This document shows, in pieces, positions 1,256 to 4,834 of a stretch of 21,470 nt of DNA. The position numbers and the translations under genes were made by a program. Each line of letters begins with the position of its first letter. The stretch's first letter is position 1. The notes beneath the pieces are model-generated. The model made no database searches. It was not told the DNA's origin and saw only the letters and a program-made list of their open reading frames with translations. This stretch comes from a virus. The stretch covers positions 1 through 21,470 of IMG/VR virus record IMGVR_UViG_3300008050_000386; one strand, written 5' to 3'.

Positions 1256-1780
1256 ATGGGTAATTCATTAGACAAACAATATCAAACCTTACTCCAAGAC
1301 ATCTTGGATAACGGGCACAACAAAGGGGATAGAACTGGTACTGGTACCAAGTCGGTATTCCCAAGAATGATTACACATAACATGGCTGAGGGTTTCCCTC
1401 TTTTAACAACCAAGAAGATGTACCATAAGGGTATCTTCACTGAGCTATTATGGCTCCTACGTGGAGACACCAACATCCAGTGGTTATGTCAGAATAATTG
1501 CAATATCTGGGTAGGTGACGCATATAAGAAGTATTGCAAAGAGTGGGGTGGGGAAAATAAATATAGCGTTACTGGAACAATGACTTTGGAAGATGGTACT
1601 ATTGGTGGTACGAGTAGGAAATTTGATAAAGAAGAGTTCACTGAAAAGATTAAAACCGATGACGCATTCGCTGAGAAGTGGGGAGATTTAGGGAAGATAT
1701 ATGGCGCTCAGTGGCGCAACTGGAATGGTAAATCTAATGACGAACTTTATGAGGATTATTTAAAACGTGTGGGTAAATAA
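1256..1780 (+). CDS. td: Thymidylate synthase, N-terminal half of a split gene
   Basis: Thymidylate synthase methylates dUMP to dTMP using methylene-tetrahydrofolate. This 174-residue frame carries the N-terminal half: DRTGTGT at 25-31 (phosphate-binding Arg region), GFPLLTTKK at 46-54, ELLWLLRGDTNIQWL at 63-77, NIW at 83-85, and GDLGKIYGAQWRNW at 143-156. It stops soon after, at YEDYLKRVGK. The catalytic Cys, the SRR-type Arg pair and the C-terminal half are in the separate frame at 2525-3268, with an HNH endonuclease gene between. Both halves are in the same reading phase. About 45 residues before GDLG (DGTIGGTSRKFDKEEF onward) are an insertion relative to the compact bacterial enzyme. The two products may associate into a working enzyme, or the enzyme may be lost. 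Confidence 0.92.
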   Translation: MGNSLDKQYQTLLQDILDNGHNKGDRTGTGTKSVFPRMITHNMAEGFPLLTTKKMYHKGIFTELLWLLRGDTNIQWLCQNNCNIWVGDAYKKYCKEWGGENKYSVTGTMTLEDGTIGGTSRKFDKEEFTEKIKTDDAFAEKWGDLGKIYGAQWRNWNGKSNDELYEDYLKRVGK

Positions 1781-1807
1781 TGTTTCCCCATTTATTACCA
1801 TATTTAT
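1781..1807 (+). promoter_or_regulatory. Putative late-type promoter of the HNH endonuclease gene
   Basis: TGTTT and ATATTTAT are separated by 14 bases, the same two-part arrangement found upstream of the terminase, protease and scaffold genes. The upstream box directly follows the stop codon of the first thymidylate synthase half, and the downstream box ends 20 bases before the likely endonuclease ATG at 1828. The function is inferred from the recurrence of the motif. Confidence 0.5.
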
Positions 1808-1827
1808 ATATGATAAACAATGGAAAT

Positions 1828-2520
1828 ATGGACTATAGAAAAATTCACGACCAAATAATTGATAGGGCTGCAATTAGAGACGTAAACGGTTATACCGAAA
1901 AGCATCATATCACACCAAAATGTATGGGTGGTGATGATAAACCAGATAATTTAGTTAAATTATACGCAAGGGAACACTTTTTAATACATTGGCTACTTCA
2001 CGAAATGTATCCACAAAACACAGATTTAAAATATGCGTTTTGGTCTATGTGTCGTTCATCCAATAATCAAGAGCGATATGTCCCATCATCAAGGGTATAT
2101 GAATACGCTAAACATCAGATGTTAGAAGTATGGCAAAAGTTTAAGCCATCGGATAAACAGATAACTTCCATTAAAAAACGTTTAACAGGAACCAAATGGT
2201 TTCATAAACCTGATGGTAGTCATTTAAGGGCGTTCCCAAATGATAATAGAATTAAAGAAGAAGGTTGGCTGATTGGTAGGTTTGGTGGTAAGAAATTGTC
2301 ACATAAAGCTAATAAAAGTAAACTTGAAAAATATCAGGGTAAAAAATCAGCAAAAACATCAAATAAAAGGTGTTCGATAAACGGTGTTGAGTTTGAATCA
2401 GCTAAAGCCGCTTCCGAGGCTATTGATATGAATGAATATTCCCTTAGATGGATACTACAGGGTAATGGGAAATCACAAAAACATAAAGAAAAATATAAAA
2501 ATTGGTATTATATAACTTAG
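1828..2520 (+). CDS. HNH homing endonuclease inserted in the thymidylate synthase gene
   Basis: This is a site-specific DNA endonuclease of the HNH superfamily, expected to cut uninserted synthase alleles and spread by repair. From the chosen ATG the protein is 230 residues. GYTEKHHITPKCMGG at 21-35 holds the metal/catalytic His pair, and NLVKLYAREHFLIHWLL at 41-57 completes the beta-beta-alpha fold with N41, H50 and H54. A W-x-H-x-x-D-G module lies around 124-150 (TKWFHKPDG to EEGWLIGRF), and a C-terminal NUMOD1-like DNA-binding module at about 182-228 (INGVEFESAKAASEAID). The frame is open back to an ATG at 1780, but MDYRKIHDQIID is the typical family N-terminus and the putative promoter lies between, so I chose 1828. 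It ends four bases before the second synthase half. Confidence 0.88.
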   Translation: MDYRKIHDQIIDRAAIRDVNGYTEKHHITPKCMGGDDKPDNLVKLYAREHFLIHWLLHEMYPQNTDLKYAFWSMCRSSNNQERYVPSSRVYEYAKHQMLEVWQKFKPSDKQITSIKKRLTGTKWFHKPDGSHLRAFPNDNRIKEEGWLIGRFGGKKLSHKANKSKLEKYQGKKSAKTSNKRCSINGVEFESAKAASEAIDMNEYSLRWILQGNGKSQKHKEKYKNWYYIT

Positions 2521-2524
2521 AGAC

Positions 2525-3268
2525 ATGAAACATACACACGAAGACGGTACACCATTCAATAAAGAAGAATTCCTACATATGCTAGAAATAGATAAAGAAT
2601 TTAAGGGTGAGTTTGGTACTAAAGGTGTTGACCAGATAGCTAAAGCTTTAGATACCTTGGTTAATAACCCAGATTGTAGGCGTATCTTGGTTAACGCTTG
2701 GAATGTGGGTGAGATTAAGAATATGACCTTACCACCATGCCACTTCGGATTCCAATTATGGACAAGAGAGTTATCAGCCTATGAACGGGAGAACCACTTT
2801 GCTTATGTGATGAATGATATGACCAACCAAGAACGATGTGAATTACATCCAAATCACCGTGATGAAGATGTACATGAGAAGATGGATGTGGAAGGTGTAC
2901 CTAGACGAGCAATATCGTTAACATGGCAACAACGTTCGTGCGATTTCCCACTAGGTATACCGTTCAATGTAGCATCTTATGGCGCTCTACTTATGATATT
3001 TGGTGAGTTAGTTAATATGGTTCCAGAAACCCTAACAGGGATGTTAGGTGATTGCCACATTTATCGTAACCAAATAGAGGGTGTTAATGAGCAAATTAGT
3101 AGAGACTCGTTTGACTTACCTAAACTAACGATTAGTACAGAATTATGGAATCCAGAGAACGTACTTGGTACTAATTGGGACGAAATCATAAAGGGTATTG
3201 AGATAGATGATTTTATATTAACCAATTACGAATCCCACCCACTAATTAAATATCCACTATCTAATTAA
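2525..3268 (+). CDS. td: Thymidylate synthase, C-terminal half of a split gene
   Basis: This frame carries the catalytic half of thymidylate synthase. DQIAKALDTL at 36-45 leads into CRRILVNAWNVGE at 51-63, with the phosphate-binding Arg pair of the neighbouring subunit. The nucleophile is C72 in LPPCHFGFQ, the dUMP-binding QRSCD motif lies further on, followed by GIPFNVASY, and GDCHIYRNQIEG holds the His/Tyr that bind the sugar. Two parts are longer than in the compact bacterial enzyme: the first 35 residues, and an extra segment of about 45 residues between FQLWTREL and the QRSCD motif. The ATG lies four bases after the endonuclease stop, so translation may depend on reinitiation. Every catalytic residue I can check is present, so this half does not look decayed. 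Confidence 0.92.
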   Translation: MKHTHEDGTPFNKEEFLHMLEIDKEFKGEFGTKGVDQIAKALDTLVNNPDCRRILVNAWNVGEIKNMTLPPCHFGFQLWTRELSAYERENHFAYVMNDMTNQERCELHPNHRDEDVHEKMDVEGVPRRAISLTWQQRSCDFPLGIPFNVASYGALLMIFGELVNMVPETLTGMLGDCHIYRNQIEGVNEQISRDSFDLPKLTISTELWNPENVLGTNWDEIIKGIEIDDFILTNYESHPLIKYPLSN

Positions 3269-3317: not shown

Positions 3318-4043
3318 ATGATAGGAATTTACAGAATAAAGAATATTAGTAACGATAAATGTTATTACGGTTCTTCGAAAAATATTGAGGTCAGGTGGCG
3401 AAACCATATAAACAAACTCAACAAGGGTAGCCATGAAAACGTACTACTACAAAGGGCTTGGGATAAGTACGGTGAGGGGAGTTTTATATTTGAAGTCATC
3501 CAAGAGTGTGGGTTAAATGTGTTATTGGTAACCGAACAAAAATACTTAAACTCGAACCCAGCGTATAATATCGGGTTATGTGCTAGTGGGGGTGACAATA
3601 TTACTAATCACCCTAATAAAGCGTTAGTGATTGCTAATATTAAACGTGGTTCGGCTAAATATCTTAATAGTTTAACACCAGAAGAACGAAAAGAAAAATT
3701 CGGTAATACGGGGCACACAAATAACAACTGGCAAGGTGGTAAAACTTTTTGTAAATGTGGTAATAAGATAAATAGTGGTACAATTGAATGTATTGATTGT
3801 GTAGATAGGAGTGGTAGTAATAATTCATTTTTCGGTAAAAAACATACTAGAGAGACTAAAGATATAATAGCTAAATCTAGGAAGGGTAAATACCATGGGA
3901 CACAAAATAACCCTATAATAGTAGATGATATAGAGTATAGGTCTGCTGGGGAAGCCTCCAAATTATTAAACATTCCAATGGTAACTATTAGATGGAGAGT
4001 AAGGAGTGATAGTAATAAATTTAAGGATTATAAATATAAATAA
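3318..4043 (+). CDS. GIY-YIG homing endonuclease
   Basis: This is a DNA endonuclease of the GIY-YIG family, which includes I-TevI and the Seg enzymes of T4. The 241 residues show GIY at 3-5 and YYG at 16-18, a basic strand-helix VRWRNH with the catalytic-type Arg at 26 or 28, and the conserved Glu at 73 in VTEQKYLN. A four-Cys zinc finger follows (C145, C147, C158, C161), then a NUMOD3 motif at about 169-191 (NSFFGKKHTRETKDII) and a C-terminal NUMOD1-like module at about 199-240. The order nuclease, linker with zinc finger, DNA-binding modules is that of I-TevI. It lies directly after the second synthase half and one base before the next gene. The start is fixed because GIY needs residue 3. 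All key residues are present, so it is probably active; the target is unknown, but the synthase gene is the obvious candidate. Confidence 0.9.
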   Translation: MIGIYRIKNISNDKCYYGSSKNIEVRWRNHINKLNKGSHENVLLQRAWDKYGEGSFIFEVIQECGLNVLLVTEQKYLNSNPAYNIGLCASGGDNITNHPNKALVIANIKRGSAKYLNSLTPEERKEKFGNTGHTNNNWQGGKTFCKCGNKINSGTIECIDCVDRSGSNNSFFGKKHTRETKDIIAKSRKGKYHGTQNNPIIVDDIEYRSAGEASKLLNIPMVTIRWRVRSDSNKFKDYKYK

Positions 4044-4164: not shown

Positions 4165-4445
4165 ATTATACAAACCCAAGCAACCCAGATTACGAAGAAA
4201 AGCCATCAGATTGGCTTAACGCTGCAATGATATTCAGCAGAGGCTTCTTAGTGGTATTACAAGAAGGTGGTGGTATCGTTATAGATATGACACCAGAGAT
4301 TAAAACTACTATGCCAGAAGGATTCCCCAGAGATGTGGATAAGTTATTGATATGCAAAGTGGACGATAAGATTCAAGTGAGGGAATGTACTGATGATATT
4401 GCAGAAGGAACTCACGTAATGGTATTAAACGACAACCCAAACTAA
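4161..4445 (+). CDS. Hypothetical protein (94 aa)
   Basis: I do not recognise this gene. It overlaps the previous gene by four bases and the dihydrofolate reductase start by one base (TAATG), so it belongs to the same translational run. The sequence looks like a small beta-rich domain: hydrophobic strands (GFLVVLQEGGGIVIDM and KLLICKVDDKIQVREC) separated by a loop with PEGFPRDVD, ending with a polar tail. There is no signal peptide or membrane segment. The position between thymidylate synthase and reductase does not by itself imply a metabolic role. Confidence 0.7.
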   Translation: MNYTNPSNPDYEEKPSDWLNAAMIFSRGFLVVLQEGGGIVIDMTPEIKTTMPEGFPRDVDKLLICKVDDKIQVRECTDDIAEGTHVMVLNDNPN

Positions 4446-4834
4446 TGAAAGCTGTGATTGCCGTTAATAATTTAGGTTTCATCGGATTAGATGATGAGTT
4501 ACCATGGAAGAATTCCAAGGACTTTAAACACTTCAAGAAAATGACCATGGGTGGAGTCCTATTGGTGGGTTATAACACCTATCAGAAGCTTCCACCTCTC
4601 AAAGGTCGCACAATGCTATTGGATGATAGAGAAACTTTAATTGAAGATATAACTGACGTTGCGGATATTGACGATGTTTGGTGTATTGGTGGTAAGAAGA
4701 CTTATGAGAAGTATGTACCATGGTTCAAGGAGATTCACATATCACACATCGATGATAATACAATAGGGGATACAACGTTTCCTAACCTAATTGGTCTTGA
4801 CCCTCTTTGCGAGATTTTCAATTATCGTTTCTAA
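4445..4834 (+). CDS. frd: Dihydrofolate reductase (short form)
   Basis: This enzyme reduces dihydrofolate to tetrahydrofolate with NADPH, recycling the cofactor oxidised by thymidylate synthase. Family motifs are clear: IAVNNLGFIGLDDELPW at 5-21, the acidic active-site residue D26 in KDFKHFKK, GYNTYQKLPPLKGR at 42-55 (NADPH-binding G-x-x-T region), WCIGGKKTYEKY at 79-90, and ISHIDDNTIGDTTFP at 99-113. At 129 residues it is about 30 shorter than the bacterial enzyme; the loss is mostly in the middle, between the first nucleotide-binding loop and CIGG, and at the C-terminus, where the last beta hairpin is cut short. All catalytic motifs remain. Proximity to thymidylate synthase repeats the T4 td-frd arrangement. 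Confidence 0.9.
   Translation: MKAVIAVNNLGFIGLDDELPWKNSKDFKHFKKMTMGGVLLVGYNTYQKLPPLKGRTMLLDDRETLIEDITDVADIDDVWCIGGKKTYEKYVPWFKEIHISHIDDNTIGDTTFPNLIGLDPLCEIFNYRF

Follow-up and report, generated by a model that had tools for sequence, protein, structure and literature searches.

The DNA analysed here, referred to as the window, is a complete IMG/VR record of 21,470 bases and represents a fragment of a T4-like phage, as assigned by PHROG matches for its terminase, portal, protease and major head protein; the terminase is approximately 31% identical to those of Microcystis and Flavobacterium phages. It carries a thymidylate synthase (TS) gene that is divided in two by an endonuclease gene, and the locus is composed of the following features:

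1256..1723, + strand: body of the TS N-half, ending in ...YGAQWRNW (PF00303 1-107; 71% identity to the intact TS of L004; residue check)
1724..1780, + strand: C-terminal tail NGKSNDELYEDYLKRVGK and TAA stop, not in intact TS and kept in split alleles (dN/dS 0.17)
1785..1826, + strand: conserved non-coding element, a putative hairpin round the HNH ribosome-binding site, with the late-promoter-like TATTTATA
1828..2520, + strand: predicted MobE-like HNH free-standing homing endonuclease, 230 aa (PHROG 655; MobE similarity)
2525..2626, + strand: N-terminal head MKHTHEDGTPFNKEEFLHMLEIDKEFKGEFGTKGV of the C-half, resembling the N-half helix KEEFTEKIKTDDAFAEKWGDLG (dN/dS 0.08)
2627..3268, + strand: body of the TS C-half, DQI... 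to ...PLSN (PF00303 105-264; 68% identity to intact L004; residue check)

The N-half (1256-1780) matches positions 1-107 of PF00303 (E 1.3e-34), and the C-half (2525-3268) matches positions 105-264 (E 4e-45); thus, the whole profile is covered by the two together. The protein encoded between them matches PHROG 655 (E 1.3e-39), which agrees with the sequence-only reading of the locus as a TS gene split by a free-standing HNH gene. This protein consists of an HNH domain, with HH..N..H visible, followed by a C-terminal NUMOD/I-TevI-like DNA-binding part; its Pfam HNH score is below the cut-off, and its HNH domain is 46% identical to Aeh1 MobE over 93 aa. Relatives at 67-76% identity occur only in split TS loci, the next-best matches being at most 59% identical and partial, and bacterial genome contigs scanned with the HNH profile yielded distant relatives only. 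Judged by its sequence, it is a MobE-like free-standing homing endonuclease, with predicted cleavage and homing. Directly after the TS C-half, the window contains a second free-standing endonuclease gene (3318-4043) of the GIY-YIG type, with an I-TevI-type zinc finger and NUMOD3; it is missing at that place in L004, and a 34% identical relative occupies the equivalent place in L021 (2915-3748). Farther downstream, 4445-4834 encodes a dihydrofolate reductase (PF00186), which has no counterpart between the equivalent neighbours among the ORFs listed for L004.

The HNH gene does not start at 1780. In relatives, in-frame stop codons interrupt the stretch before MDYKKIH, so the true start is 1828 and the 47 bases at 1781-1827 are non-coding. 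A 42-base core (1785-1826) is predicted to fold as a hairpin covering the ribosome-binding site; the fold is stable in L016 and L025, both with z -4.5, and weak in the window, with z -1.1. In this structure, 94% of cells are paired versus 36-54% when it is slid along; no covariation was seen, 11 of the 16 pairs being invariant. The upper part of the hairpin (1801-1808 in the window) contains the motif TATTTAT[AT], which is enriched 5' of ORFs in these phages and may be their late promoter. The same motif is seen approximately 20-30 bases before ORF starts in the window (4837, 5412, 15833) and in L004 (7087, 7607).

The boundaries of the inserted unit are given by L004, a 59.9-kb contig that is syntenic with the window and encodes an uninterrupted TS of 382 aa. 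By comparison with L004, approximately 903 bases (1724-2626) stand in place of a 36-base, 12-residue loop, EPPAWNIKNGGI, and the coding extensions on both halves belong to this cassette of approximately 0.9 kb, whose order is an 18-aa tail, a stop, a leader with the hairpin and late-promoter-like motif, the HNH gene and a 34-aa head. An insert of exactly 747 bases at 1775-2521, as proposed earlier, is therefore not the real unit. Uninterrupted alleles were found in L004, L170 and about 80 others, and across 84 intact relatives, the stretch from QWRxW to DQI is a hypervariable loop; the break point in the window is precisely this loop.

Beyond the window, the tail and head were found at no fewer than ten phage loci, and they accompany three endonuclease types and two break points. 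In L016, L017, L019/L020, L021/L022, L023, L024 and L025, the same place is broken and is accompanied by the tail, the head (shortened in L016) and an HNH gene 67-76% identical to that of the window. IMG/VR scans added L199/L201/L203, L200 and L202, which have the same break, tail and head and an HNH protein only 35-37% identical to that of the window. In L199 (reverse strand), L200 and L202, a conserved extra ORF of 55 aa (MGRLKKYKTEQEKIEAQRAWAK...) lies between the N-half and the HNH gene, designated type B, and overlaps its start. L197 is broken elsewhere (profile 2-140 / 140-262; ...SAWNVGDI / KMALPPCH...) by a GIY-YIG endonuclease, and its N-half has a long unusual insert, but it still carries the tail RSDDKLYEDYLKQIG and the head NYTHEDGTPFTKEEFLEKLKIDKEFSNKFG. 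In L208 (157 kb), the TS gene is intact and the tail and head persist as relics only, the head relic ITE* overlapping the ATG of the intact gene; this arrangement is a natural reversion. L207 (4816-5316) contains a TS N-half with the tail, followed by unrelated small genes with no adjoining endonuclease, and this 18.8-kb contig ends before any C-half. An assembly artefact was considered for the split arrangement and is ruled out by its recurrence in many contigs and by L019 and L020, which come from different metagenomes and are 100% identical over 6.7 kb.

Because the td gene of T4 contains a group I intron and the two halves in the window are in the same reading phase, it might be supposed that the halves are joined by RNA splicing (group I or II intron), by protein splicing (split intein) or by ribosome bypassing. 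The agreement in phase, noted in the sequence-only reading, does hold for the window; however, it carries no meaning, since the N-to-C phase is 0, 2, 0, 0, 1, 1, 2 and 1 in the first eight split loci, and the agreement is a matter of chance. No group I or II intron, and specifically no td-type ribozyme core, was matched by Rfam at the window locus at the gathering or relaxed threshold, and an intron core could not fit into the 47 + 4 non-coding bases. Pfam gave no match to any intein family, and a tail of 18 aa is too short for an intein. In addition, the gap from the endonuclease gene to the C-half ranges from -11 to 939 bases and contains other ORFs in L016, L020 and L021; ribosome bypassing was rejected on account of a gap that is too long and too variable. 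Joining by any of these routes is thus very improbable, as the earlier claim of neither intron nor intein had anticipated.

The two peptides at the new ends, the tail of 18 aa and the head of 34 aa, are kept in split alleles, and intact TS is without the tail. When the split loci are pooled, the tail has a dN/dS of 0.17 and the head one of 0.08. Since both exist only in split alleles, this constraint must have acted after the split, which implies that the split state itself has been under selection. In 11 of 11 site-1 loci, the head aligns with the KEEFI..KTDDEFA..WG segment of the N-half at the same locus, and none of 500 shuffles does as well. No such alignment was obtained in the shuffle test between the head of L197 and its own TS, which is without this segment. 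Together, these results are best explained if the head originated as a duplicate of a TS helix and was then taken up into the mobile unit. Pattern scans of IMG/VR for the tail and head gave matches only at TS loci or at the TS relic in L208. In cultured phages, the tail had no match, and the head gave nothing beyond a single weak match to a metagenomic record and the intact TS of an Acinetobacter phage; the ends of Aeh1 NrdA-a and NrdA-b show no similarity to either. Small ORFs in L206 (7238-7582), L021 (316-666) and L018 (6834-7121) encode a KEEFINKxKTDxEF helix and share a C-terminal motif, IPTKLITITYNxxxIESY; they are either TS-derived fragments or a separate small family.

The tail, an amphipathic LYEDYLKK helix, and the head, a diverged duplicate of the TS helices KEEFI..KTDDEFA..WG, are most likely docking adaptors. 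Alternatively, they might be DNA flanks, preserved as the recognition site of the endonuclease or by co-conversion, and not protein adaptors at all. Both do travel with the cassette, and most split alleles also share a GxGWR motif upstream of the tail, which none of the intact alleles listed has; this distribution suggests co-conversion. However, synonymous sites have diverged in the tail (pS 0.51) and in the head (pS 0.67) while the amino acids are conserved, and the peptides recur at a second break point and beside nucleases of other families, which makes the flank explanation unlikely. A further reading of the adaptors, on which our confidence is evenly balanced, is that the tail and head form a transferable pair, a mobile 'joint', that would let different endonuclease families split an essential enzyme gene at different places without killing the enzyme; the head would then be a duplicated enzyme helix that was later carried into a TS lacking that helix (L197).

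In trees of the TS bodies, the split alleles fall into more than one group: the window pairs with intact L004 (100) and L023 with intact L170 (95-98), although some long branches make individual placements weaker. Trees with a single split clade are rejected by the AU test, run on a 27-row subset of the 86-row set (p 3e-190; p 2e-6 without the window). It follows from these polyphyletic TS bodies that the cassette has moved between TS lineages. Mean nucleotide identity among split loci is 82% for the HNH gene and 87% for the leader, compared with 61-63% for the TS bodies. The polyphyly of its hosts and the existence of empty sites are indirect signs that the cassette may home by means of its nuclease. 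In the C-half of the window, the active-site segment at 3000-3150 (RSCDFPLGIP, GDCHIYRNQIEGVNEQ) is closer to L017 than to the nearest relative, L004, and may be a conversion patch or a convergent change.

The residues required for catalysis are distributed over the two polypeptides. The N-half body carries the equivalents of E. coli R21, E58, W80 and Y94, and the C-half body carries the Arg pair, the catalytic Cys, QRSCD, Asn177 and the His/Tyr motif; a residue check found Cys146, Arg126/127, Arg166, Asp169, Asn177, His207/Tyr209, Arg21, Glu58, Trp80 and Tyr94 across the pair. The retention of catalytic motifs proposed from the sequence thus extends beyond the window, as the set is complete in 12 of 12 split pairs except for R127G in L024. 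Relative to L004, the N-half has dN 0.25 and dS 0.92 and the C-half dN 0.17 and dS 1.43, ratios that in part reflect pre-split history; for the HNH gene, dN/dS pooled over split loci is 0.13. The split-bearing contigs of 129, 142, 165, 166 and 203 kb contain no second ThyA and no ThyX, the window itself being a 21-kb fragment; a second intact synthase, which had been named as evidence against a working split enzyme, is therefore not found in these contigs.

It could be argued that the endonuclease simply inactivated the TS gene and that the halves are decaying remnants, retained only because the insertion is recent. The halves of L018 are truncated and its HNH gene has a stop, L024 has R127G and a long branch, and L208 shows that relics can persist; accordingly, some split copies may be failing. 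As a general account, decay is improbable: frames and catalytic residues are intact in 12 pairs although the HNH genes have a mean dS of approximately 0.9, the tail and head are constrained despite existing only after the split, and the large contigs offer no other TS.

We regard it as highly likely that the TS is functional as two polypeptides and that a homing cassette carries it. The two halves very probably join into a working enzyme, since the cassette supplies a small matching piece for each new end and these pieces are retained at every split. An AlphaFold2 model was computed for the window read through the stops, with the out-of-frame stretch as an artificial linker and a 64-row alignment (an earlier run with a 19-row alignment was uninformative). 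Both halves for the most part, along with the tail helix and the head helices, are modelled at a pLDDT of approximately 90, and the linker stays below 50; in Foldseek, the model aligns to whole solved TS chains with a target-normalised TM of 0.83-0.90. The placement of both halves in one TS fold is compatible with assembly and serves only as a consistency check, because the alignment includes intact homologues and the linker is artificial.

In the proposed mechanism, a MobE-family HNH gene with its own stop codon, a late-promoter/hairpin leader and two coding extensions has taken the place of the hypervariable loop that joins strand QWRNW to helix DQI at the surface of TS. Two polypeptides would then be made, residues 1-156 plus the tail, and the head plus the remainder. 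These would reassemble non-covalently into one TS subunit, with the tail and head as docking adaptors and the complete active site in neither half alone. Expression of the endonuclease would be late, and the cassette would home into TS alleles without it.

To our knowledge, genes broken by homing endonucleases have been known in phages from a few single cases, and no split TS of this kind was found in the open-access literature, subscription papers lying outside the search. Here, one enzyme has been split over and over in diverse, uncultured phages, with the same end peptides, unrelated endonucleases, two breaks and a natural reversion. How selfish DNA can persist inside an essential gene with the help of neither intron nor intein becomes testable, and the tail and head may supply a natural split-protein joining pair.

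The closest known system is nrdA-a/mobE/nrdA-b of Aeh1, already suggested as the best parallel and supported by the MobE-type HNH domain and by the lack of an intron or intein. There, too, a MobE-family HNH gene splits a nucleotide-metabolism gene, and the split enzyme is reported to be fully active (PMC2988022) and to form an (alpha-a + alpha-b)2 beta2 complex (PMC3267527); the two polypeptides of the present locus are predicted from sequence. Unlike Aeh1, where the gene encodes ribonucleotide reductase, the target here is TS, and the arrangement spans many phages with a shared tail and head, three nuclease types and two break points. T4 td with I-TevI is likewise a TS gene interrupted by a mobile endonuclease, and its leader may follow a similar logic, as a hairpin sequestering the ribosome-binding site and a late promoter are described for both Aeh1 mobE and T4 I-TevI (PMC2988022). 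However, td contains a group I intron and is spliced to give one protein, whereas the present locus has no intron and should yield two proteins. Free-standing homing endonucleases also split, or are associated with, T4 gene 60/39 (mobA) and gene 43A/43B of Aeromonas phage 25 (seg43) (PMC2988022), but these are other genes, and that review describes no recurring adaptor pair such as the one that accompanies the split TS.
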